Assembly: GCF_022678645.1 (NCBI RefSeq)
Contig: NZ_JALBWV010000003.1
Coordinates: forward strand, 124,001-188,000
DNA length: 64,000 nt
Direction: 5' to 3'
From: Saccharopolyspora soli
Lineage (GTDB): Bacteria; Actinomycetota; Actinomycetes; Mycobacteriales; Pseudonocardiaceae
Both the position numbers and the translations under genes were made by a program. The notes under the pieces were generated by a model. It did not search any database, was not told the origin of the DNA, and was given only the letters and a program-made list of their open reading frames with translations. Positions 5,253 through 42,988 of the stretch are shown piece by piece. How positions within the stretch are numbered: the first letter of the stretch is position 1; the number at the start of each line of letters is the position of its first letter.

Positions 5253-5738
5253 TCAGAGGTGCAGTTTGAAGCCCTCGTGCGAGGCCGCGAAGCCGAGCCG
5301 CTGGTAGAAGCGGTGCGCGTCGCTTCGCTGTTTGTCGGAGGTCAGCTGCACGAGCGCGCAGCCACGCCGACGAGCCTCGGCGATCGCCCATTCGCACATC
5401 TCGCGGCCCAGGCCGTGGCTGCGGTGCTGCTCGTGGACCCGGACCGCCTCGATCTGCGCTCGCAGCGCGCCGCGCCGCGCCAGTCCGGGGATGAACGTGA
5501 GCTGCATGGTCGCGACGATCTCGCCGCCGCTGGTGGTCGCGACGACCAGCAACTGCGCCGGATCGGCGTCGATCGCCGCGAACGCCTGCCGGTAGGGCTG
5601 GAGCTCGGCTGCGGACTCCCGCGTCGCGCCCAGCTGATCGGCCGCCAGCAGCTCGACGATCCGCGCGACGTCGGCATCGGTGGCCCGACGCAGCACATAG
5701 GTCTCGTCCCCGGCGGACAGCGTCGCCAACGTGCTCAC
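5253..5738 (-). CDS. GNAT-family N-acetyltransferase
   Basis: The 161-residue protein has a complete GNAT fold. YVLRRATDADVARIVELL is strand 1/helix 1. The acetyl-CoA motif A, IEAVRVHEQHRSHGLG, is followed by the C-terminal HRFYQRLGFAASHEGFKL. The GTG start at 5738 is chosen because GGAGG lies 5 bases upstream; the open frame continues further upstream but without a ribosome site. The substrate is unknown; the small size and architecture resemble enzymes acting on free amino compounds. It is divergent from the MFS gene at 5851. Confidence 0.85.
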   Translation of the reverse strand: MSTLATLSAGDETYVLRRATDADVARIVELLAADQLGATRESAAELQPYRQAFAAIDADPAQLLVVATTSGGEIVATMQLTFIPGLARRGALRAQIEAVRVHEQHRSHGLGREMCEWAIAEARRRGCALVQLTSDKQRSDAHRFYQRLGFAASHEGFKLHL

Positions 5739-7290: not shown

Positions 7291-7333
7291 CCGTCCGGCA
7301 ACGGCGCACCGACCACGAAGGATGCCAACCAGC

Positions 7334-8680
7334 ATGACCGCGCAGCAGTGCCCGGTGGTGACCGACATGCGGGTCGTGCCCGTCGCCGGGCAGGACAGCA
7401 TGTTGCTCAACCTCAGCGGAGCGCACGCCCCGTACTTCACCCGCAACCTGGTGATCCTCACCGACTCGGCAGGCCGCACGGGAATCGGTGAGGTGCCCGG
7501 CGGGGAACCGATCCGCACCACTGTCGAAGAGTCGCGGGACCTCGTCGTCGGCCGATCGATCGCCCAGTACCGCTCGGTGCTGGGCGCCGTGCGCAACCGC
7601 TACGGCGACCGGGATTCCGGCGGGCGCGGCGTGCAGACCTTCGACCTGCGGGTCGCGGTGCACGCCGTCACGGCCCTGGAAGCCGCGCTGCTCGACCTGC
7701 TCGGCAAACACCTCGAAGTCCCGGTCGCCGACCTGCTCGGGGAGGGCAGGCAGCGCGACCACGTCCCGGTGCTGGGCTACCTGTTCTTCGTCGGTGATCG
7801 CACCAGGACCGACCTGGCGTACCGATCACCAGCGGACGAACCGGTCAACGCCGACGACTGGATGCGGCTGCGCCACGAGGCAGCGCTCACGCCCGAGTCC
7901 GTGGTGCGGCTGGCCGAAGCGGCCCGCGACCGCTACGGGTTCCGCGACTTCAAGCTCAAGGGCGGCGTGCTGCCCGGACCGGCCGAGATCGAGGCCGTCA
8001 CCGCGCTGGCCGAACGGTTCCCGGATGCGCGCATCACCATCGATCCCAACGGTGCGTGGCGGCTGACCGAGGCGATCGAGTTGTGCCGGGGACTGCGCGA
8101 CGTGCTGGCCTACGCCGAGGATCCGTGCGGTGCGGAGCAGGGCTTCTCCGGGCGGGAGACGATGGCGGAGTTCCGCCGCGCGACGGGACTGCCCACCGCC
8201 ACCAACATGATCGCCACCGATTGGCGTGAGCTGGGCCACGCGATCCGCGCGGACGCGGTCGACATCCCGCTGGCCGACCCGCACTTCTGGACGATGAGCG
8301 GTTCGGTGCGCGTCGCGCAGCTCTGCGACGCGTGGGGCCTGACCTGGGGCTCGCACTCGAACAACCACTTCGATGTGTCGCTGGCGATGTTCACCCACGT
8401 CGCAGCCGCCGCGCCCGGCGAGATCACGGCCATCGACACGCACTGGATCTGGCAAGACGGGCAGCGGCTGACCCGCGAACCGCTGGTCATCGCCGATGGC
8501 AGGCTGCCGGTGCCCACCGCACCGGGGCTCGGCGTCGAACTGGACATGGACCGCGTGGCGGCGGCGCACGAGCGCTACCAACGGGAAGGGCTCGGTGCTC
8601 GCGACGACGCGATGGCCATGCAGTACCTCATTCCGGGCTGGACCTTCGACAGCAAGCGGCCCGCACTGGACCGCAGCTGA
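7334..8680 (+). CDS. gudD: Glucarate dehydratase
   Basis: The 448-residue enolase-superfamily enzyme dehydrates D-glucarate to 5-dehydro-4-deoxyglucarate. The KLK motif (Lys207/Lys209 in FKLKGG), metal ligands Asp237 (DPNGAW), Glu262 (EDPCG) and Asn291 (NMIATD), and catalytic His341 (GSHSNNHFD) are all visible. ATG at 7334 is preferred because GAAGGA ends about 12 bases before it; ATG 7322 would overlap that site. The immediately upstream kdgD is broken, so the product must be handled by a copy elsewhere or the pathway is dead. No gudP or gar genes are adjacent. Confidence 0.9.
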
Positions 8681-30766: not shown

Positions 30767-32554
30767 TCATCGCCGTGGCGTCGAGTTGCCTCCGGTATTT
30801 CCCGCGGCATCGGGTGCGGAAACAAGGCGGTGGGTCCCGTCGGGCAGGCGCTGCGTCGTGCCGTGGCGAGCGAGCAGTTCCAACAAGGGAACCGCAACAC
30901 GACGCGAGGTGTCCAGTGCCTGGCGGGCCTGGCTGAGGGTGAACGGCTCGGGCAGCGACGCCAGGCGCGGCACCGCCAATTGCTCGGCGTCGGGCAGCAG
31001 CACCAGGCCGGGGGCCAGGCGCAGCAGCGCTCCGATGCGTGCGGCGGCGGCGAGTTCTTTGTCGCCGAGACCGAGCGCGGCGAGCTCGTCGGCGGTGGGC
31101 GCTTGGAACGGGTGGTCGATGAATCCCCGCCTGATCTCCTCGATCGCACGGCGGACCCGCTCGGGCAGCGGTGTCGGTCCGTTGCGCAGGCGACCTGCCC
31201 GCAGCGACACGCCAGCCGCCTGTGCGATTTCGGGCAGCAGCGCGGGATCGGGCAGGTCCAGGGCTCGACGTGCGGCTTCGGCGGGCATGCCGTCGTCGAG
31301 CGGATGGGTCTGGCGGTGCTGCGCCAGCAACGCCGCGAGGCGGTCGCAGAGGTCGGCTCGGTGCGCCTCGTCCAACAGCCACGGTCCAGGGCCGGGTGGC
31401 GCGGCACCCATCGCGCGCAAGTCGGCGGCCCGGACCAGGCGTCGTCGTCGTAGTTCTGCCACACCGTCGGGTTGCCCGTCCATGGTGGTCAGTTCAGCCG
31501 CTCGCGCTCGCGCGGCACCGCGCCTGGTCAACTGGGGCGGGCGCACATCGAGCACGACCAAGCCCCCGAAGATGCGCTGGCTGCCCGGATCGCGAAGCAG
31601 CGCACGGTCGCCGATGCGCAAGGGCAGCGGCGCGCGCAGCGCGAGTCGGGCGGTGTCGTGGCCGAGCGGGCGGACGCGAGTGCTGACGGCCGCTGCGCCG
31701 ATGTGCAGCATCAGTTCGCGCGGCAGGTCGACGGCCCGGTGGATCCTGACATCGAGCACGTCCGTGCTCAGCCAGCGTTCCGGGGTCAGCAGCACGCTTC
31801 CGCGCCGCGCCCGGTCGAGGTCGACGCCGCGCAGGTTGACCGCCACTCGTGCGACAGCGCTGACCTGCTGTTCAGCTGATCCCAGCGCTTGCAAGCCGCG
31901 CACCGCCACTTCCGCGTCGGCGGGATGCAGGTGCAAGTGGTCGCCACTGCGGATGGTGCCTGCGGCCAGGGTTCCGGTGACGACCGTTCCGGCGCCGGAG
32001 ATGGTGAACGCGCGATCGACCCAGAGCCGCACGTCGGCTTCCCGGTCCGCCTCGGGAAGTCGGTGGATGAGCTCGTCGAGTTCGTGTCGCAGTTCGCCCA
32101 AACCGGCACCCGTGCGTCCGCTGACGTGCACCACGGGGATGTCGGCCAGGCCGGTGTCCCGGAGCCGGTCATGGGCCTGTTCGCTCGCCGATCCCGGATC
32201 AGCCAGGTCGCAGCGGGTGACCGCGAGCAGCCCGTGCCGCACGCCGAGGGCGTCCAAGGCGTCGAGGTGTTCGCTGGACTGCGGCATCCAGCCCTCGTCG
32301 GCCGCGACGACGAACAGCACGGCGGGCACCGGGCCGACGCCAGCCAGCATGTTCGGCACGAACCGCTCGTGGCCGGGCACGTCGACGAACGCGGCCGTGC
32401 AGCCGTCCGGCAGCCGGGCCCATGCGAACCCGAGGTCGATGGTCAGCCCCCGGCGGCGTTCCTCCGCCCAGCGGTCCGGTTCCATCCCGGTGAGCTGGCG
32501 GATGAGCGTGGACTTGCCGTGATCCACGTGCCCGGCGGTGGCGATGACGTGCAT
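30767..32554 (-). CDS. selB: Selenocysteine-specific translation elongation factor SelB
   Basis: The 595-residue GTPase delivers Sec-tRNA to the ribosome at UGA. It has G1 GHVDHGKST, G2 RGLTID and G3 DVPGHE; the G4 position reads TRCD where many have NKxD. It also has beta-barrel domains and a C-terminal set of winged helices (about residues 380-595) that bind the SECIS hairpin. The ATG shares one base with the selA stop (TGATG), so the two genes are coupled. Its client is almost certainly fdhA at 37949. Confidence 0.95.
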   Translation of the reverse strand: MHVIATAGHVDHGKSTLIRQLTGMEPDRWAEERRRGLTIDLGFAWARLPDGCTAAFVDVPGHERFVPNMLAGVGPVPAVLFVVAADEGWMPQSSEHLDALDALGVRHGLLAVTRCDLADPGSASEQAHDRLRDTGLADIPVVHVSGRTGAGLGELRHELDELIHRLPEADREADVRLWVDRAFTISGAGTVVTGTLAAGTIRSGDHLHLHPADAEVAVRGLQALGSAEQQVSAVARVAVNLRGVDLDRARRGSVLLTPERWLSTDVLDVRIHRAVDLPRELMLHIGAAAVSTRVRPLGHDTARLALRAPLPLRIGDRALLRDPGSQRIFGGLVVLDVRPPQLTRRGAARARAAELTTMDGQPDGVAELRRRRLVRAADLRAMGAAPPGPGPWLLDEAHRADLCDRLAALLAQHRQTHPLDDGMPAEAARRALDLPDPALLPEIAQAAGVSLRAGRLRNGPTPLPERVRRAIEEIRRGFIDHPFQAPTADELAALGLGDKELAAAARIGALLRLAPGLVLLPDAEQLAVPRLASLPEPFTLSQARQALDTSRRVAVPLLELLARHGTTQRLPDGTHRLVSAPDAAGNTGGNSTPRR

Positions 32555-33843
32555 CAGGATGCCGCCAGCACCGCGCGACGCAGGTCGTCGTCCTGTTCAG
32601 GGGGAAGTGCGGCCAGGTCCAGCACGCAGTGACCGTGTTCGACGCGGGCGAGAACCGCCGGGCGTCCACCGCGCAGCAACTCGGCGAAGCGCGCGGGCAG
32701 TGCGACGGCCGCGCTGGGCAGCGCGACACCAGGTGCGCCGCCGCCACCCACAGTCGCCTCGCTGAGCTGCGCAGACGCCGAAACACCGGCGGCGTTGAAC
32801 GCCTCCGCAAGCCGTTCGGCGCGGCGCATCAGCTGCACCTGATCTTGGCGCAGTGCCAACGCGGTCGGCGTGCTCGGCCCGCGCACGGTGGCCTCCAACG
32901 CGGCGAGAGTGAGCTTGTCGACGCGCATCGCGCGAGCCAACGGGTGCCGACGCAGCCGTTGCACGATGTCGGCCGCGCCCAGCAGCAATCCCGCCTGGGG
33001 GCCGCCGAGCAGCTTGTCGCCGCTGGCGATGACCAGCTCGGCTCCATCGGCGAGCGTCGTGGTCGCGTCTGGCTCCTCCGGGAGGACCGGATGCGGCCGC
33101 AGCAGACCCGAACCGATGTCGACAACCACCGGCGCGTCGAGTTCGCGCAGCTCGGCGACCGGGACCGTTGCGGTGAAGCCGCTGATCACGAAGTTCGACG
33201 GGTGCACCTTGAGGACGAAGCCGGTATCCGGCCCCAGCGCCGCCCGGTAGTCGTCGAGCCGGGCCCGGTTGGTGGTGCCGACTTCGCGTAGTCGTGCACC
33301 GGTGGCGGTGAGCAGTTCGGGAATGCGGAAGCCGTCGCCGATCTCGATCATCTCGCCGCGCGCCAACACGATCTCGCGGCCCTGCGCGAGCGCGGTCGCG
33401 GCGAGCGCGAGGGCGGCGGCGCCGTTGTTGACCACGTGCGCCGCCTCGGCACGTGGCACGGCCGCCAGCAGCGCGGCGACGGCCGCCGCACCGCGTGGGC
33501 CGCGTCGGCCGGTGCGCAGGTCGAGTTCGACATCGGTGGTTCCGGCGGCCTGTCGCAGAGCGTCGATCGCGGCGTCGGACAGCGGAGCGCGACCGAGATT
33601 GGTGTGCAGGAGAACGCCGGTCGCGTTCAGCACCGGCCGGATGCTCGATGCTGCGTCTGGCAGCGCGGCCAGTGTCGCCGCGACGACGTCCGTCGGCTCG
33701 ATCTCGCCTGCCCGAGCCCGGCCCTGCGCGGTGTGCACCGCCTGCTTGACCACCCGATGTCCCAGATGCGCCGTCGCGGCGGCCACCTCGGGTTGGGCCA
33801 GCACCCGGTCGGTGCCCGGCACTCGCTGCCGCGGGTCGGCCAT
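32554..33843 (-). CDS. selA: L-seryl-tRNA(Sec) selenium transferase SelA
   Basis: The 429-residue PLP enzyme converts Ser-tRNA(Sec) to Sec-tRNA(Sec) using selenophosphate. VLNATGVLLHTNLGRAPLSD (71-90), VVNNGAAAL and the PLP lysine Lys277 in SGDKLLGGPQAG are conserved. ATG 33843 is the family-like start; upstream codons run into the divergent promoter region. It is coupled to selB. selD, which makes selenophosphate, is absent from the window. Confidence 0.95.
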   Translation of the reverse strand: MADPRQRVPGTDRVLAQPEVAAATAHLGHRVVKQAVHTAQGRARAGEIEPTDVVAATLAALPDAASSIRPVLNATGVLLHTNLGRAPLSDAAIDALRQAAGTTDVELDLRTGRRGPRGAAAVAALLAAVPRAEAAHVVNNGAAALALAATALAQGREIVLARGEMIEIGDGFRIPELLTATGARLREVGTTNRARLDDYRAALGPDTGFVLKVHPSNFVISGFTATVPVAELRELDAPVVVDIGSGLLRPHPVLPEEPDATTTLADGAELVIASGDKLLGGPQAGLLLGAADIVQRLRRHPLARAMRVDKLTLAALEATVRGPSTPTALALRQDQVQLMRRAERLAEAFNAAGVSASAQLSEATVGGGGAPGVALPSAAVALPARFAELLRGGRPAVLARVEHGHCVLDLAALPPEQDDDLRRAVLAAS

Positions 33844-33914
33844 GGGCCGCACTATAGGTCGGCCTCCTCGAACTGGCCGGTCAAGCGGCCAGCGGCGCTG
33901 GAACAAGCCGACTG

Positions 33915-33932
33915 TGACAATGATCGTTGACA
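33915..33932. promoter_or_regulatory. Imperfect palindrome between selA and the ephD-like gene
   Basis: TGACAATGATCGTTGACA pairs at 7 of 9 positions around its centre. It sits 21 bases before the ephD-like ATG and about 72 bases upstream of selA on the other strand, and could be an operator for either. Confidence 0.35.
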
Positions 33933-33952
33933 AAATCGGTACGCTGCCGGGT

Positions 33953-35707
33953 ATGGCCCGCACCCCGCGCGACTCCGGCAGGCGGCTGGACACCTCTGAC
34001 GGCCTGGGGCTGGCTGTGCGGGAACACGGCGATCCGACCGCCCCGACAGTGCTCGCGGTGCACGGCTACCCCGACGACAGCGCGATCTGGGACGGCGTCG
34101 TGGCAGCGCTGTCCGAGAAGTACCGCGTGGTCACCTACGACGTGCGCGGGGCGGGGGAGTCCGACAAGCCCCCGCAGACCGAGGCTTACCAGCTGGAGCA
34201 GCTCGCCGACGATCTCGCCCGAGTCATCGACGCGGTCAGCCCGGACCGGCCGGTGCACCTGCTCGCCCACGACTGGGGTTCTGTGCAGTGCTGGCACGCG
34301 GTCTCCGAGCGGCGTTCGGCCGACCGGTTCGCCTCGTTCACCTCGATCTCCGGTCCATGCCTGGACCACGTTGGGCGGTGGATGCGCGCGAAGTTGCGCC
34401 GACCGACGCCGCGGGGCTTGCGCGAGCTGATCACGCAGGTGGTCTTCTCCAGCTACATCGGCTTCTTCCAACTTCCCGTGCTACCTGAACTCGCGTGGCG
34501 AACCGGCCTGCTGCCGAAGCTGATCACCACGCTGGAGCGGTTCGACCCGTACGCGGCGGCGAATCCGACGCGGCCCGCGCTGTCCGACGGCCTGCACGGC
34601 TTGCAGCTGTACCGGGCGAACACGCGGGCGCGCATGTCGAAGCCCGAGGAGCGGCGTACTGGAATCCCGGTCCAGGTGCTCGCGCCCAACGGTGATCCGT
34701 TCGTGTCGGCGCCGTTGCAGACCGAAATCGCGCCGTGGGTGCCGAACCTGCGGGTGCGTCGGCTGCCCGGCGGCCACTGGCTGCCGCGTACCCGACCCGA
34801 GCTCGTCGCGCGCTGCACCGCGGAACTGGTCGAGCACGTCGAAGGTGGTGCGGAGCCGCGTGCCCTGCGGCGCAGCCGGGTGCGGCCGGGGCGGCACCAC
34901 TTCCAGGATCAGCTCGTGGTCGTTACCGGCGCGGGCAGCGGGATCGGGCAAGCCACGGCGCTGGGTTTCGCCGCGCAGGGTGCGCATGTGGTTGCCGCCG
35001 ACATCGACGGATCCGCCGCCGAACGCACTGCCGAGAAGGCCGGTGCGAACGCTACGCCGTACTGCGTCGATGTCGCTGATCGGACGGGCATGGAGCGTTT
35101 CGCCGCGCACGTGCACGCCGAACTCGGCACCCCGGATGTGGTGGTCAACAACGCTGGGATCGGCATCGCGGGCTCCTTCGCGGGCACCTCGGTCGCCGAC
35201 TGGGAGCAGGTCATCGACGTCAACCTGTGGGGCGTCATCCACGGCTGCCGGTTGTTCGCGGAGCAGATGATCGCCCGCGGCGAAGGCGGCCGGATCGTCA
35301 ACGTCGCTTCGGCAGCGGCGTACCTGCCATCGCGCGTGCTTCCGGCCTACAGCACCACGAAAGCCGCGGTGCTGGCGCTCAGCCAGTGCCTGCGGGCGGA
35401 GTTGGCCGCCGACGGGATCAAGGTCATCGCGATCTGTCCGGGCCTGGTCAACACCGGCATCACGACCAGCGCCCGGTTCGTCGGTATCGCGGATGCCGAG
35501 CAGGACCGGCTTCGCCGGGCCGTAAAGCGGCTGTACCGGCGGCGGAACTTCTCGTCGCACCGCGCGGCGGCGGAGATCCTGCGCGCCGTGCAGCGGGACG
35601 CCGCGATCGCGCCGATCACGGCCGAAGCGCGGGTCGGGCTGGTGCTCTCCCGCCTGACCCCCGGCTTGCTGCGCGCCGCGGCCAAAGCCGACCTGACGCC
35701 GCACTGA
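33953..35707 (+). CDS. Alpha/beta hydrolase-SDR fusion protein (EphD-like)
   Basis: The 584-residue fusion joins an N-terminal epoxide-hydrolase-type domain (1-300; nucleophile Asp107 in LLAHDWGS) to a C-terminal short-chain dehydrogenase. The SDR shows TGAGSGIG near 324-331, NNAG, and Tyr466/Lys470 in YSTTK. Domain order and length match mycobacterial EphD. ATG 33953 is preferred over ATG 33920, which would fall inside the palindrome; the ribosome site is weak. Likely acts on lipid epoxides or related ketones at the membrane or cytosol. It is divergent from selA and terminated at 35744. Confidence 0.88.
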   Translation: MARTPRDSGRRLDTSDGLGLAVREHGDPTAPTVLAVHGYPDDSAIWDGVVAALSEKYRVVTYDVRGAGESDKPPQTEAYQLEQLADDLARVIDAVSPDRPVHLLAHDWGSVQCWHAVSERRSADRFASFTSISGPCLDHVGRWMRAKLRRPTPRGLRELITQVVFSSYIGFFQLPVLPELAWRTGLLPKLITTLERFDPYAAANPTRPALSDGLHGLQLYRANTRARMSKPEERRTGIPVQVLAPNGDPFVSAPLQTEIAPWVPNLRVRRLPGGHWLPRTRPELVARCTAELVEHVEGGAEPRALRRSRVRPGRHHFQDQLVVVTGAGSGIGQATALGFAAQGAHVVAADIDGSAAERTAEKAGANATPYCVDVADRTGMERFAAHVHAELGTPDVVVNNAGIGIAGSFAGTSVADWEQVIDVNLWGVIHGCRLFAEQMIARGEGGRIVNVASAAAYLPSRVLPAYSTTKAAVLALSQCLRAELAADGIKVIAICPGLVNTGITTSARFVGIADAEQDRLRRAVKRLYRRRNFSSHRAAAEILRAVQRDAAIAPITAEARVGLVLSRLTPGLLRAAAKADLTPH

Positions 35708-36511: not shown

Positions 36512-37363
36512 CTACGCCGCGCGGTCGAACCGATCGGTGGCGGACTGGAACACTCCGGGCGTGATCCCGTAATAGCGGCGGAACCAGCGCGTGAGGTGGC
36601 TCTGGTCGGCGAAGCCGGATGCGAATGCGGCGTCGGCCGGGGTGCTGCCCTCGGACAGCAGGCGGCGCGCGTAGCGCAGCCGGAGCTGGCGTTGGTACTC
36701 GCTGGGGCTCAGCCCGTGCACCGCTCGGAATCCGCGTGTCAACGCGAATCTGCTGCGGCCGCAGACCTCGGCGAGTTGGTCGATGCCCAGGTCGTCGGCG
36801 AAGTGCGCGTGCAGCAGATCGCGCACCCGGCGCAAGCCGGGGTCGTCGGGACGCGCACCGGGCGCCCAGCCCGGTGGTGCGGCCCGAACCGCACAGCGTC
36901 GCACCATCGCGTCGACGGCCTGCCGCAGGGCTTCGTCCTGAGCCAATGAACTTTCCCGCTCCGCGAGTGCGGTGCACAGGCGGCCCAACGCCGTCGCCAA
37001 GACCGGATCGTGCAGGACGGGCTCGGCGAACAGCGGTGCGCCGACCGGCCGCTGCGCCGCATCGGCGAGCACGTCGCGGATCAGCTCCGGTCCGATGTGG
37101 ACGATCTCGTAGGTGAACCCGCCGTCGAAGGCGGCCTGGCCGTCGTGCGGGTCGTCCGGGTTGAAGGCCATCACCATGCCCGCCGAACTGGTGCGCTGCG
37201 CACCGCGGCAGCGAAACGTCTGCGCGCCGAGTTCGGTGATGCCGAAGGAGTACGCGTCGTGGCTGTGCAGGTCGTAGGCGTGGCGTTCGAAGTGCGCGCG
37301 CATCGCCTCGACCGGGAACCGGCCGGACCGCCAGTACCGCGACCATTCGGAGCTGTCGGGCAT
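36512..37363 (-). CDS. AraC-family transcriptional regulator
   Basis: The 283-residue regulator has an N-terminal cupin-type ligand domain (FERHAYDLHSHDAYSFGITE) and two C-terminal helix-turn-helix units: IDQLAEVCGRSRFALTRGFR, then PADAAFASGFADQSHLTRWF followed by RRYYGITPG. ATG 37363 is supported by the family start MPDSSEWSRYW. It is convergent with the PPOX gene and divergent from the DUF2000 gene, its probable target. Confidence 0.9.
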   Translation of the reverse strand: MPDSSEWSRYWRSGRFPVEAMRAHFERHAYDLHSHDAYSFGITELGAQTFRCRGAQRTSSAGMVMAFNPDDPHDGQAAFDGGFTYEIVHIGPELIRDVLADAAQRPVGAPLFAEPVLHDPVLATALGRLCTALAERESSLAQDEALRQAVDAMVRRCAVRAAPPGWAPGARPDDPGLRRVRDLLHAHFADDLGIDQLAEVCGRSRFALTRGFRAVHGLSPSEYQRQLRLRYARRLLSEGSTPADAAFASGFADQSHLTRWFRRYYGITPGVFQSATDRFDRAA

Positions 37364-37445
37364 GCCGCCATTGTCCCTCCGGCTCCGCCGGGCGGGTGCA
37401 CGAGCGTTCAAGACAGGCGTTCGGCCCGGCGGTGATGATTCGGGC

Positions 37446-37856
37446 ATGGCAACCCGGACGAAGATCGCCGTAGTCGTGCGCAAGGACCTGGCCGAGTGGC
37501 AGAAGCTCAACGTCACCGCGTTCCTGATCAGCGGTATCACCGCGGCGAACCCGGACCTCCTCGGCGCGGACTACCTCGATGCCGACGGAGTTCGCTACCT
37601 GCCGCTGCTGGGTCAACCGGTGCTCGTCTACGCCGCCTCCGCTGAGGAGATCGCGCGGGCCCACGCCCGAGCCGTTGAACGCGGCATGGCGTCGGCGGTC
37701 TACACCGAGGACATGTTCGGCACCGGGAACGACGTCGACAACCGGGCCGCCGTGGCGGCCAAGGCCACCGCGGAGCTGAACCTGGTGGGGTTCGCCGTCC
37801 ACGACGCCCGCAACGCGGTGGACAAGGTCTGCAAGGGGCTCATCCTGCATCCCTGA
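37446..37856 (+). CDS. DUF2000 domain protein
   Basis: The 136-residue protein matches the DUF2000 family: KIAVVVRKDLAEWQKLNVTA, then FLISGITA, and the C-terminal NLVGFAVHDARNAVDKVCKG. It resembles peptidyl-tRNA-hydrolase-like folds but has no assigned reaction. The start lies 82 bases from the divergent AraC gene, with no clear ribosome site, so it may be leaderless. fdhA begins 93 bases downstream. Confidence 0.8.
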   Translation: MATRTKIAVVVRKDLAEWQKLNVTAFLISGITAANPDLLGADYLDADGVRYLPLLGQPVLVYAASAEEIARAHARAVERGMASAVYTEDMFGTGNDVDNRAAVAAKATAELNLVGFAVHDARNAVDKVCKGLILHP

Positions 37857-37914
37857 CGGCCGAGCCGACCAGGTCGGCGGCCAAGCGCTGAGCTTGCAGC
37901 ACCGCGTCGGTGGG

Positions 37915-37944
37915 TTTCTCCTGGGGGCACGAGGTTGGGAGAAA
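37915..37944 (+). promoter_or_regulatory. Hairpin that would mask the fdhA ribosome site
   Basis: TTTCTCC (37915-37921) can pair with GGAGAAA (37938-37944), which contains the GGGAG ribosome site of fdhA; three weak inner pairs could extend it. Folding would hide the site and limit translation. Confidence 0.4.
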
Positions 37945-37948
37945 TCCG

Positions 37949-40900
37949 ATGGTCGAGTGGCTGCGGTGGCCGGTGGTGCGCCAGCTGGCCGGGGCCGATC
38001 CGCTGGGACGCGGCTCGGCGGCCCGGTCGCCGCGCACCGATGCCCGACGGGCGCGCACCGAGGAAGCCGACTCGGTGGTCCGGTCGGTGTGCCCGTACTG
38101 CGCGGTGGGCTGCGGCCAGCGGGTGTTCGTCCAGGACGGCGCGGTCACCCAGATCGAGGGTGACCCGGATTCGCCGATCAGCCGCGGCCGGTTGTGCCCG
38201 AAGGGCTCGGCCAGCCGCGAACTGGTGACGTCACCGCTGCGGCAGACCAAGGTCCGCTACCGCCGCCCGCACGGCACCGAGTGGGAGGACCTCGACCTTG
38301 ACACCGCGATGGACATGATCGCCGACCGGGTGCTGGCCACCAGGGCCGCCACCTGGCAGGACACCGACGCCGACGGCCGACCGCTGCGGCGCACGACGGG
38401 CATCGCGAGCCTCGGAGGAGCGACCCTCGACAACGAGGAGAACTACCTCATGAAGAAGCTCTACACCGCCCTCGGTGCCATCGAGGTGGAGAACCAGGCC
38501 CGCATTTGACACTCCTCCACGGTGCCCGGTCTGGGTGCCTCCTTCGGGCGCGGCGGCGCCACCACCTTCCAGCAGGACCTCGCCAACGCGGACTGCATCC
38601 TCATCCAGGGTTCGAACGCGGCCGAGGCGCACCCGGTCGGTTTCCAGTGGGTGATGGAGGCCAAGCGGCGCGGCGCCACGATCATCCACGTGGATCCGCG
38701 GTTCACCCGCACCTCGGCGCTGGCACACCGGCACGTGCCGCTGCGGGCTGGCAGCGACATCGCCTTCCTCGGCGCGCTGATCAACCACGTGCTGACCAAC
38801 AACGCCTACTTCCACGACTACGTCGCGGCCTACACCAACGCGGCGATGATCGTCAGCGAGGATTTCCGCGATACCGAGGACCTGGGCGGCGTCTTCTCTG
38901 GATTCGATGCCGAAGCCGGCAGCTATGACACCACCAGCTGGCAGTACGAACGCTGCTCCCCGGTCCCGTCGGACGGCGGCCACGGTCCGGAAGTGCCCAC
39001 CACCGCGCACGGACGGGAGCGCGACGCGAGCCGCCCCGAACGCACCGGATCGGGCGGCGCGGTCTATCGCGGCCGTCCCGAAACCGACCCGACGTTGCAG
39101 CACCCCCGCTGCGTCTTCCAACTCCTGAAGCGGCATTACGCCCGCTACACGCCGGAAATGGTTGAGCGGGTCTGCGGCGTGCCTCGGGAGGACTTCCAAT
39201 GGGTGGCCGAAAAGCTGGTGGCGAACTCGGGCCGGGAGCGCACCACTGCCATCGCCTACGCGGTCGGCTGGACGCAGCACACCGTGGGTACCCAGTACAT
39301 CCGCGCCGCGTCGATCCTGCAGTTGCTGCTGGGCAACATTGGTCGACCAGGCGGCGGAATCCTGGCTTTGCGCGGGCACGCCAGCATCCAGGGGTCGACC
39401 GACATCCCGACGCTGTTCAACCTGCTGCCCGGTTACATTCCCATGCCGCACGCGCACACCGACTTCGACCTGGATTCGTTCGTGGCCGAGGACGAGCTCG
39501 CCCGCGGCCACTGGGCGAACATCCGCGCCTACCTGATCAGCCTGCTCAAGTCCTGGTGGGGTGAGTACGCCACCGCCGACAACGACTTCTGCTTCGACCA
39601 CCTGCCGCGGCTGACCGGCGACCACGGCACCTTCCAGACGGCGATCAACCAGATCGAAGGACGCGGCAAGGGCTACTTCGTCGTCGGCGAGAACCCGGCG
39701 GCGGGCACCGCCAACGCACGGCAGCAGCGGATGGGCCTGGCCAACCTGGACTGGCTGGTGGTCCGCGACCTCAACATGATCGAGACCGCCACCTTCTGGC
39801 GGGATGGCCCCGAAATCGAGACAGGGGAGATGCGCACCGAGGACATCGGCACCGAGGTGTTCTTCCTGCCAGCCGCCGCGCACACCGAGAAGGACGGCAG
39901 CTTCACCAACACCCAGCGACTGCTGCAATGGCACCACAAAGCCACCCAGCCACAAGGAGATCAGCGCAGCGACCTGTGGTTCTTCTACCACCTGGGTCGG
40001 CGCTTGCGGGAAAAGGTCCCGGCGGGGGACGTGCGCAATCGCGCGCTGCTGGAGCTGACCTGGGACTACCCCACCGAAGGTGATCTCGACGAGCCGAGCG
40101 CGGCGGCGGTGCTGCGGGAGATCAACGGCGTCGATGCCGAGGACAACCCGCTGACGACCTACACGCAGCTGCGCGCCGACGGTTCGACCCGTTGCGGCTG
40201 CTGGATCTACTGCGGTGTCTTCGCCGACGGGATCAACCAGGCGGCTCGACGACGTCCCGGACAGCAGCAGTCGTGGGTCGCGCCCGAGTGGGGCTGGGCC
40301 TGGCCCGACGATCGGCGGCTGCTCTACAACCGGGCGTCGGCGGACCCGGACGGTCGGCCCTGGAGCGAACGCAAGGCATACGTCTGGTGGGACGAGCAGC
40401 GCGGCGAGTGGACAGGTCACGACATCCCGGACTTCGACCGCGGCAAGCGCCCGGACTACCAGCCCGCACCCGACGCCACCGGCCCGGAAGGCATCGCGGG
40501 CAGCGAACCGTTCATCATGCAGACCGACGGCCGAGGCTGGCTGTACGCCCCTGCCGGACTGGTCGACGGACCGCTGCCGACGCACTACGAGCCGCAGGAA
40601 TCACCGCTGGAGAACCGGATCCACGCCGCGCAGCAGCGAAACCCCGCGCGGCAGGTGCGTTCTCGACCGGAGAACCGGTACCAACCCAGCGGAGACGAGC
40701 CCGGCAGCGAGGTCTTTCCCTACGTGTTCACCACGTTCCGGCTCACCGAACACCACACCGCAGGGGGTATGAGCCGGTGGTTGGCGCACCTGTCGGAGCT
40801 GGCCCCGGCGATGTTCCTGGAGGTTTCACCAGAACTGGCCGCCGAACGCGGGCTGCGGCACCTGGCCTGGGCGACCGTGGTGACCGCCCGCAGTGCCATC

Positions 40901-41218
40901 GAAGGTCGGGTGCTGGTGACCGCCCGGATGCGGCCGTTGCGGTTTGGTGCGCGCACGATCCACCAGATCGGCATCCCGTGGCACTGGGGACCCAACGGCC
41001 TGACCGTCGGTGACGCGGCCAACGAACTGGTCAACGTCGCGCTGGACCCCAACGTGCACATTATGGAGACGAAGGCGGGCAGCTGCGACATCCAGCCGGG
41101 GCGCCGCCCGCGCGGTCCCGCGCTGGTCCGCTACGTCGAGGAGTACCGCAGGCGCGCGGGCATCACCGAAGACACCGGCGTGGAGCACGCCGACGATCCA
41201 CGACGGGGAGGGGAGTGA
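37949..41218 (+). CDS. fdhA: Selenocysteine formate dehydrogenase, alpha subunit (TGA 38507-38509 = Sec)
   Basis: This molybdopterin enzyme oxidises formate to CO2. Read through the TGA at 38507-38509 it gives 1,089 residues with Sec at 187. The N-terminal [4Fe-4S] ligands are Cys48, Cys51, Cys55 and Cys83 (CPYCAVGC, RLCPKG), with Lys85 after the last. Upstream of the TGA reads ENQARI and downstream HSSTVPGLGASFGRGGA, exactly the active-site context of FdnG-type enzymes, where the residue is Sec or Cys. The frame is the same on both sides. A SECIS-like hairpin follows. ATG 37949 has GGGAG and matches family N-termini. There is no twin-arginine signal, so it faces the cytoplasm. fdhB and a NrfD subunit follow. 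Confidence 0.95.
38507..38539 (+). promoter_or_regulatory. Sec codon TGA and bacterial SECIS hairpin
   Basis: GGTGCCC at 38521-38527 pairs with GGGTGCC at 38533-38539 (two G-T pairs) around loop GGTCT at 38528-38532. The loop begins at base 22 counting the U of UGA as 1, the same spacing and loop as E. coli fdhF. SelB recognises such loops and bulges; pairing here has no obvious bulged U. Confidence 0.88.
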
Positions 41219-41225
41219 GGGGTTC

Positions 41226-42086
41226 GTGACCCAGAACCGGTTGAGCGGCCCGCTGGCGGACCCGGCGGCCGAGGCGGGGTATCCGAGTGATCACCCCGAG
41301 CGCGTCGGATTCTTCACCGACACCAGCGTGTGCATCGGCTGCAAGGCATGCGAAGTCGCGTGCAAGCAGTGGAATCTGCTGCCCGAGGACGGCCTCGACC
41401 TCACCGGGATGTCCTACGACAACACCGGTGCGCTCGGCGCGACGAGCTGGCGGCACGTGGCGTTCGTCGAACAGTCGAGCTCCACTGTGGACCTCGGCAT
41501 GCCCGGCATGGGCGGGGATCAGGTGCGGTGGTTGATGTCCTCGGACGTCTGCAAGCACTGCACCCATGCGGCTTGCCTGGACGTGTGCCCGACCGGTGCG
41601 CTGATCCGCACCGAGTACGGCACCGTGCTGGTCCAGGACGACGTGTGCAACGGGTGCGGTTATTGCGTGCCCGCCTGTCCGTACGGGGTGATCGATATTC
41701 GACCCGACACCGGCGGCGCCGCCAAGTGCACGCTGTGCCAGGATCGGTTGGGGGCCGGGTTGATGCCTGCTTGCGCGACGGCGTGCCCGACGGAGTCCAT
41801 CCAGTACGGTCCGCTCGACGAACTCCGCGACCGCGCCGAACTGCGCGTCGCCGAATTGCACGAGCAGGGCGTCACCGGTGCTCGGTTGTACGGTCACGAT
41901 CCGGCCGACGGGGTCGGCGGCGATGGCGCGTTCTTCCTTTTGCTGGACGAACCCGAGGTCTACGGGCTACCGCCGGATCCGGTCGTTACGACGCGCGATC
42001 TACCGTCGATGTGGCGGCACGCGGCGGGCGCGGCGCTGACCGCGGCTGCGGTGATCGCCGGGTGCTTCCTCGGGGGCAAGCGGTGA
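41226..42086 (+). CDS. fdhB: Formate dehydrogenase beta subunit, four [4Fe-4S] ferredoxin
   Basis: The 286-residue subunit has four cysteine clusters: CIGCKACEVACKQWN, CKHCTHAACLDVC, CNGCGYCVPACPYG and CTLCQD with later CATACP. They pass electrons from FdhA. The C-terminal AAGAALTAAAVIAGCFLGG forms one membrane helix, which anchors the dimer. The GTG start lies 7 bases after fdhA and its stop overlaps the NrfD start. Confidence 0.93.
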   Translation: MTQNRLSGPLADPAAEAGYPSDHPERVGFFTDTSVCIGCKACEVACKQWNLLPEDGLDLTGMSYDNTGALGATSWRHVAFVEQSSSTVDLGMPGMGGDQVRWLMSSDVCKHCTHAACLDVCPTGALIRTEYGTVLVQDDVCNGCGYCVPACPYGVIDIRPDTGGAAKCTLCQDRLGAGLMPACATACPTESIQYGPLDELRDRAELRVAELHEQGVTGARLYGHDPADGVGGDGAFFLLLDEPEVYGLPPDPVVTTRDLPSMWRHAAGAALTAAAVIAGCFLGGKR

Positions 42087-42988
42087 AGCGCGGCGATCGG
42101 TTGATCGTGCCGGAGGCGGAGTTCCGGTCTTACTACGGGCGGCCGGTGCTAAAGCAGCCGGTGTGGAAGGTGCCGGACGTGCCCGCGTACCTCTACCTCG
42201 GCGGCATGGCCGGAGCGTCGTCGACGATGGCACTGTGCGCGGATCTCACCGGGCGTCGGGAGTTGGCCCGCGCCGGTCGGTGGGCCGCAGCGGTGGGGGC
42301 GACAGTCAGTGTCGTGGCGCTGGTCCACGATCTCGCCCGCCCGGCACGGTTCCTGAACATGTTGCGGGTGCTGAAACCGACCTCGCCGCTGAGTATCGGT
42401 TCCTGGATTTTGACGCCGTTCTCAGCGCTTTCCAGCGCGGGCGTGGCCAGCGAACTCACCGGCTGGCTGCCGACGCTCGGCCGGGCGGCCAGCACCACCG
42501 CTGGGGTGATCGCCCCGGCGATGACGACCTACACCGCCGTGCTGTTGGCCGACACTGCGGTGCCGGGCTGGCACGAAGCCCACCGCGAACTGCCGTTCCT
42601 GTTCGCCGGGAGCGCCGTGTCGAGTGCTGGGGCAGTGGGAATGCTCGCCGCGCCGCGCGAATCCGCTCCGGCCCGGCGGATGGCCATCGCCGGTGCGGCG
42701 CTGGAGTTGGCGGCAGGTCAGCGCATGCACCGGCGGATCGGTCTGGTCGGCGAGGCCTACCGGCAGGGCCGCGCGGGCGCTGTGTTGCGCACCGCCCGCG
42801 CACTGGCGTGCGTCGGCGCGGGCGCGGCGCTGTTGGCCGGACGCAGTCGCGGCGCGGAAGTCGTCTCGGGACTGTGCCTGAGCGCTGCGGCCGTCGCGAC
42901 GCGGTACGGGATCTTCGAGGCCGGACGCGCGTCGGCCCGCGATCCCCGCTACACCGTGGTGCCCCAGCACAACGGCCTGACCAGCTGA
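42083..42988 (+). CDS. NrfD/PsrC-type membrane quinone-interacting subunit
   Basis: The 301-residue protein has eight or so hydrophobic helices and the NrfD start YLYLGGMAGASSTMALCADL. It lacks the multiple heme-ligand His residues of FdnI, so quinone reduction without cytochrome b is likely. The GTG overlaps the fdhB stop. The three subunits would form a cytoplasm-facing membrane formate dehydrogenase coupled to menaquinone. Confidence 0.88.
   Translation: MKRGDRLIVPEAEFRSYYGRPVLKQPVWKVPDVPAYLYLGGMAGASSTMALCADLTGRRELARAGRWAAAVGATVSVVALVHDLARPARFLNMLRVLKPTSPLSIGSWILTPFSALSSAGVASELTGWLPTLGRAASTTAGVIAPAMTTYTAVLLADTAVPGWHEAHRELPFLFAGSAVSSAGAVGMLAAPRESAPARRMAIAGAALELAAGQRMHRRIGLVGEAYRQGRAGAVLRTARALACVGAGAALLAGRSRGAEVVSGLCLSAAAVATRYGIFEAGRASARDPRYTVVPQHNGLTS

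Follow-up and report, generated by a model that had tools for sequence, protein, structure and literature searches.

An in-frame TGA, very probably a selenocysteine codon, in the formate dehydrogenase alpha subunit gene of Saccharopolyspora soli

It is known that formate dehydrogenase alpha is listed first among the bacterial selenoprotein families, with 822 organisms (PMC5029168). For actinobacteria, published papers describe several closely related systems. Actinomycetospora chiangmaiensis DSM 45062 has three selenocysteine (Sec) formate dehydrogenases, on the genes of which bSECISearch was run, and in this bacterium the build-up of formate is relieved by selenite, the removal of formate being selenium-dependent (PMC7176365). 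Corynebacterium aurimucosum has a formate dehydrogenase with an internal UGA together with sel genes (PMC2830990), and Amycolatopsis mediterranei has a formate dehydrogenase with an internal UGA together with tRNA(Sec), as told in PMC4048454.

Here, we analyse a stretch of 64,000 nucleotides of Saccharopolyspora soli (hereafter the window), the source genome of which comprises 9.35 Mb in 184 contigs. The formate dehydrogenase gene in the window is, like those described for C. aurimucosum and A. mediterranei (PMC2830990, PMC4048454), actinobacterial and contains an internal UGA. It belongs to a well-known enzyme family, of which it is very probably an ordinary selenocysteine-containing member; an NCBIfam model exists for this protein, and selenium-dependent removal of formate has been published for another actinobacterium (PMC7176365). 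In the library searched, a literature search combining Saccharopolyspora, formate dehydrogenase and selenocysteine returned no account of this particular gene, the related passage concerning Amycolatopsis. The gene offers a checked case of Sec recoding from an actinobacterial lineage of high G+C, for which the Cys homologues, lacking an intact hairpin, serve as a natural control. It is relevant to annotation because the enzyme is divided in two by a plain ORF call. The mechanism itself is not new.

The alpha subunit gene and its neighbours

The features of the dehydrogenase locus are as follows.

37949..41218, + strand: alpha subunit of formate dehydrogenase (1089 residues, of which residue 187 is predicted to be Sec), assigned by NF041513 (formate_DH_Act)
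38507..38509, + strand: in-frame TGA, codon 187, very probably the selenocysteine codon, from the frame reading and the homologous loci
41226..42086, + strand: beta subunit of formate dehydrogenase, 4Fe-4S ferredoxin type, with a single hydrophobic segment at the C-terminus, from domain matches and hydropathy
42074..42988, + strand: frame (start codon not fixed) that contains the gamma subunit, a membrane anchor of the NrfD type, with PF03916 at 39.7 bits over the cut-off of 25.8

From ATG 37949 to TGA 41216-41218 the frame is open apart from TGA 38507-38509. In this same frame the G+C content of the third codon positions is 0.90 upstream of codon 187 and 0.87 downstream, and because it is high on either side there is no frame change at the TGA. 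The initial annotation had described the TGA as in-frame, with one frame on both sides and with the flanks ENQARI and HSSTVPG, all of which is borne out by the translation and, for the frame, by the third-position G+C.

With residue 187 filled, the protein scores 1940.8 bits with the NCBIfam model NF041513 'formate dehydrogenase' (cut-off 1400), the match spanning residues 5-1069, and no difference from that family is seen. Second among the NCBIfam models comes TIGR01553 (formate dehydrogenase N alpha), at 922.6 bits and likewise over its cut-off, which is 814.2. The expected domains are present, namely an N-terminal Fe4S4 domain, a Molybdopterin domain and a dinucleotide-binding domain, with PF04879, PF00384 and PF01568 each over its cut-off. 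The top PDB hits, at E 1.5e-206, are alpha chains bearing the name selenocysteine-containing formate dehydrogenase, and in the two alignments shown to chains so named, residue 187 stands against C or X with the QARI-HS context kept. The closest named relatives in the alpha gene, among the best 80 of at least 590 loci, are Saccharopolyspora elongata with 90% identity in the best segment and S. indica with 86%.

It was also claimed that gene finders split this gene into two. This holds for the plain ORF list, which gives two ORFs, 37910-38509 and 38522-41218, but it does not hold for two RefSeq plasmids, of Arthrobacter and Tsukamurella, where the homologue is a single CDS over its TGA; therefore annotation can handle the TGA form. 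In these plasmids the cluster comprises alpha, beta, nrfD, selD, selC, selA and selB genes. Two other well-covered plasmid records (H1 and H5) list no feature at the homologue, which says little because their gene table describes itself as incomplete.

The beta subunit scores 173.2 bits with TIGR01582 (FdnH-type), under the curated cut-off of 334.7, and the anchor frame 42074-42988 shows only one strong segment in a simple hydropathy scan. Elsewhere in the genome there is a single fdhD gene, both of its match rows falling at one place; it encodes a sulfurtransferase needed by such formate dehydrogenases. Between selA and the dehydrogenase gene lie an AraC-type regulator gene (36512-37540, − strand) and a DUF2000 protein gene (37362-37856, + strand), the longest frames of which overlap. 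Note also that ARAGORN calls a 94-base tRNA-Trp at 7622-7715 (− strand) of the window, inside the long open frame 7322-8680 of the opposite strand, which may be a false call.

The hairpin after the TGA and its conservation

Downstream of the TGA the following element is found.

38521..38539, + strand: putative bacterial SECIS hairpin GGUGCCC-GGUCU-GGGUGCC, with stem 38521-38527 pairing with 38533-38539 and loop GGUCU at 38528-38532

Counting the U of the UGA as base 1, the loop starts at base 22 (38528) and the stem at base 15. The loops of E. coli fdhF (GGUCU) and fdnG (AGUCU) stand at the same offset from the UGA. The initial annotation had the hairpin itself starting exactly 22 bases from the UGA as in fdhF, which is true of the loop and not of the hairpin, the stem of which begins seven bases earlier. 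The Rfam model SECIS_3 matches 38504-38562 with 34.9 bits (E 1.9e-6), under its gathering score of 63; with the same model E. coli fdhF has 35.8 bits, about as the window hairpin, and fdnG has 84.3 bits. In the isolated window stretch the folding energy is no better than that of shuffled sequence (z = 0.71, with 149 of 200 shuffles at least as stable), and the hairpin is the centroid and not the minimum-energy structure. Folding energy was consequently rejected as support, and it is comparison across relatives, not folding energy, that supports the putative hairpin, as discussed below.

Two overlapping sets of homologous loci were read. The family set came from hits in 150 family genomes and comprises 96 formate dehydrogenase loci (30 + 66), leaving out the second piece of G130 as well as G103:C606, G093:C7 and G028 (about 41% identity, C-terminal part only). 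The named-genome set comprises the best 80 of at least 590 loci. Base pairs were counted on 88 TGA loci of the family set, without the locus L088, and covariation was scored on their 55 distinct sequences.

At the Sec position the codon is TGA in 89 of the 96 family loci and TGC in the other 7 (L088, read separately, has TGA), and among the best 80 of at least 590 named-genome loci there are 74 with TGA, 3 with Cys and 3 with TAG. This bears on the possibility that the TGA is a real stop (by nonsense mutation, in a pseudogene or through a sequencing error), so that the gene is broken or in two pieces. The two ORFs of the plain list agree with that possibility, and the TGA in 89/96 family loci and in 74/80 of those best named-genome loci, the two sets overlapping, argues against it.

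The hairpin argues against a real stop as well, by covarying in the TGA loci and being broken in the TGC loci. The loop reads (G/A)GU(C/U)U in all 88 scored TGA loci, and the six inner pairs are formed in 87 of them. Pair 17-29, which lies at third codon positions, is always paired in these 88 loci, being UA in 39, UG in 23, CG in 15, GU in 6 and GC in 5. The outermost pair is formed in 71/88 only and is for that reason not a firm part of the element. By contrast, in the TGC loci the helix is broken in 7/7, and a T at loop position 23 occurs in 0/7. In the named-genome set (best 80 of at least 590) the inner six pairs are likewise formed in 72/72 scored TGA loci and in 0/3 Cys loci.

Two-sided changes occur in 22 cells across the 55 distinct sequences, and the covariation score is 0.225 against a shuffle mean of 0.101, a value reached by none of 500 shuffles. 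Sliding the partner strand brings the pairing down from 96.4% to 70.1% or less. Two pairs show a two-sided change, a count that is not unusual by shuffle (197/500) because variation is slight or absent in most of the helix. With the hairpin model the TGC loci still score 12.4 to 32 bits, because the surrounding protein sequence is shared, and the TAG loci score 57 to 58 bits (n=3).

In the three TAG loci, L196 (5538-5540), L206 and L209 (both 5550-5552), which are from Geodermatophilus sp. TF02-6, Blastococcus sp. DSM 46786 and Blastococcus sp. MG754426, respectively, TAG stands in place of TGA at the Sec codon and the same hairpin follows (57-58 bits, model R1). ARAGORN found no tRNA-SeC within these three loci. 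Decoding of UAG as Sec by a tRNA(Sec) with anticodon CUA has been published, Blastococcus saxobsidens being among the cases (PMC5330540).

The codon preceding the UGA is ATT, GTT or ATA in 88/88 scored TGA loci, whereas the 7 Cys loci have GTC or GTG there. The window alpha gene otherwise prefers ATC for Ile (38 ATC, 4 ATT). L088, the TGA locus outside the 88, has ATG before its UGA, so the form of this codon is not absolute. Part of the pattern may be due to the exchange of Ile for Val and to common ancestry, and we consider it unlikely that the codon is held in a form aiding Sec insertion, beyond the known UGA-SECIS system.

Selenocysteine machinery, co-occurrence and selection

Two genes of the machinery are in the window itself, about 4 kb before the dehydrogenase gene.

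30767..32554, − strand: selB, selenocysteine-specific elongation factor, 595 aa, profile 281.4 bits, over the curated cut-off
32554..33993, − strand: selA, L-seryl-tRNA(Sec) selenium transferase, 479 aa, profile 402.9 bits, over the curated cut-off

The other two, selD (385.2 bits, over the curated cut-off) and selC (73.3 bits; called by ARAGORN as tRNA-SeC with anticodon TCA, i.e., UCA), lie together some 135 kb away from the dehydrogenase gene, on its contig. A whole genome without selC and selD had been named beforehand as evidence that would speak against a selenocysteine codon; here both are present, in addition to selA and selB. A second Sec gene was looked for in two ways. Among the 10 Molybdopterin-family match rows of this genome only the alpha gene has an in-frame TGA, with no internal stop in the others. 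In the search with the hairpin model, which scored 150 of 10392 first-look candidates, the alpha-gene site has E 6.4e-15 and the next place 0.047, with no second strong hairpin place among those scored.

For the co-occurrence across the 150 family genomes, the selB profile was dropped as a presence test, since that model also scores other proteins (second hit 205.5 bits in this genome) and a cut at 1e-70 lay within the range of probably true cases; presence was judged by selA and selC. The selC search of the 150 genomes was made with stricter filters, with 26 candidates scored per genome in the rows shown. In this way selA is found in 103/150 genomes and selC in 102/150. The genomes with the TGA form have selA in 82/82 and a selC match in 81/82, the one miss (G138) being a draft that is 87% complete. 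Of the seven genomes with the Cys form, five are without selA and two (G031 and G115) keep selA + selC, and because of these two the machinery alone does not force the TGA form. In both, the Cys-form locus (L097 and L091, respectively) has a broken hairpin, corresponding to either a Sec-to-Cys change or a gene gained as the Cys form. In a further 19 selA genomes of the 150, no hit of the dehydrogenase was assigned to either the TGA or the Cys form.

Both upstream and downstream of the TGA, dN against four named relatives is much lower than dS, indicating purifying selection; against S. elongata, for example, the dN/dS pairs are 0.031/0.253 upstream and 0.058/0.507 downstream. Note that dN is higher downstream than upstream in 4/4 comparisons, and that the ratio dN/dS is higher downstream in only 2/4 and is always far below 1. 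Purifying selection on the part downstream of the TGA argues against a real stop, and together with the conserved TGA and the hairpin it led us to reject a premature stop or pseudogene, which we regard as extremely improbable.

The frame after the Sec position is also long in the homologues, with at least 850 open codons in 90/95 loci within the stretch covered. Of the five shorter ones, L123, L124 and L125 reach the end of the stretch, and L087 and L122 meet a stop. In L087, a hit listed with 3 TGA, the further stop is 690 codons past the Sec codon. In L122 (G129:C1:3518198-3522772), from a relative in the same genus, an interruption follows about codon 660 of the gene, and the two matching parts are separated by about 1.3 kb. 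Several family hits are listed with '2 TGA'; in the one such locus read, L047, the extra in-frame TGA was dismissed as the ordinary terminal stop, at residue 1076 of 1077.

Proposed pathway and comparison with known systems

The sel genes, the conserved UGA, the covarying hairpin, the broken hairpins of the TGC loci and the purifying selection support the proposal of the initial annotation that the TGA is a selenocysteine codon and neither a frameshift nor a premature stop. We regard it as almost certain that the alpha gene encodes a Sec molybdopterin formate dehydrogenase of the actinobacterial type, in which UGA 187 is read as Sec by means of SelA, SelB, SelC, SelD and the hairpin. By analogy with the E. 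coli system, Sec is very probably inserted at residue 187 in the following way. SelD would make selenophosphate, with which SelA would convert seryl-tRNA(Sec), the product of selC with anticodon UCA, to selenocysteyl-tRNA(Sec). SelB would carry the Sec tRNA and bind the GGUCU loop 3' of the UGA, so that the ribosome would insert Sec at residue 187 instead of terminating. Sec 187 would be a metal ligand at the active site, where the alpha subunit is predicted to oxidise formate to CO2, and the electrons would pass to the beta subunit, then to the membrane anchor and probably to menaquinone.

Alternatively, the UGA might be read as an ordinary residue (Cys, Trp or another) and not as Sec, either wholly or when selenium is scarce. 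In A. chiangmaiensis without added selenite some formate must still be removed, because the build-up reaches a molar ratio of only about 0.6 (PMC7176365), which is what such reading-through would give, but trace selenium could equally explain this removal. Moreover, selA, selB, selC and selD are all present in the genome here, selA occurs in 82/82 genomes with the TGA form, and the SECIS element is kept with UGA and broken with TGC. We consider such a reading very unlikely, and selenocysteine remains the preferred one.

The alpha subunit shares with E. coli FdnG the match to TIGR01553 over its cut-off and the offset of the (A/G)GUCU loop from the UGA. They differ at the N-terminus. FdnG starts with SRRQFFK, which we take to be a twin-arginine leader, whereas no SRRxFxK-like motif was seen by eye in the first 60 residues of the window alpha subunit. 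On a crude scale the most hydrophobic stretch within the first 80 residues lies at 43-61 (1.07), at the Fe4S4 domain, compared with 8-26 (1.35) in FdnG. As no twin-arginine leader like that of FdnG is seen on the alpha subunit, the active site and the complex are probably on the cytoplasmic side, as judged from the sequence. The complex differs from E. coli FdnGHI also in its NrfD-type anchor, FdnI being a cytochrome b, and in its beta subunit, which is under the cut-off of the FdnH-type model TIGR01582.

As a side observation, plasmid pYA7-1a of Arthrobacter sp. YA7-1 (L215) carries the formate dehydrogenase genes, selD, selC, selA and selB in one cluster. This plasmid is typed as conjugative, and the Sec cluster is located between an integrase gene and a Tn3-family transposase gene, so that it is possibly a mobile selenocysteine package.

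Finally, we compare the locus with A. chiangmaiensis, by its published description (PMC7176365). A. chiangmaiensis has three Sec enzymes, whereas here there is one gene with an in-frame TGA among the 10 Molybdopterin-family match rows, and here, in difference from that system, selC + selD are about 135 kb away from the dehydrogenase gene. The window alpha subunit is, on the other hand, like the alpha subunits of A. chiangmaiensis FDH1 and FDH2, which contain Sec and have 1078 and 1089 aa, and the FDH1 cluster also has beta, gamma, selA and selB genes, as in the window.
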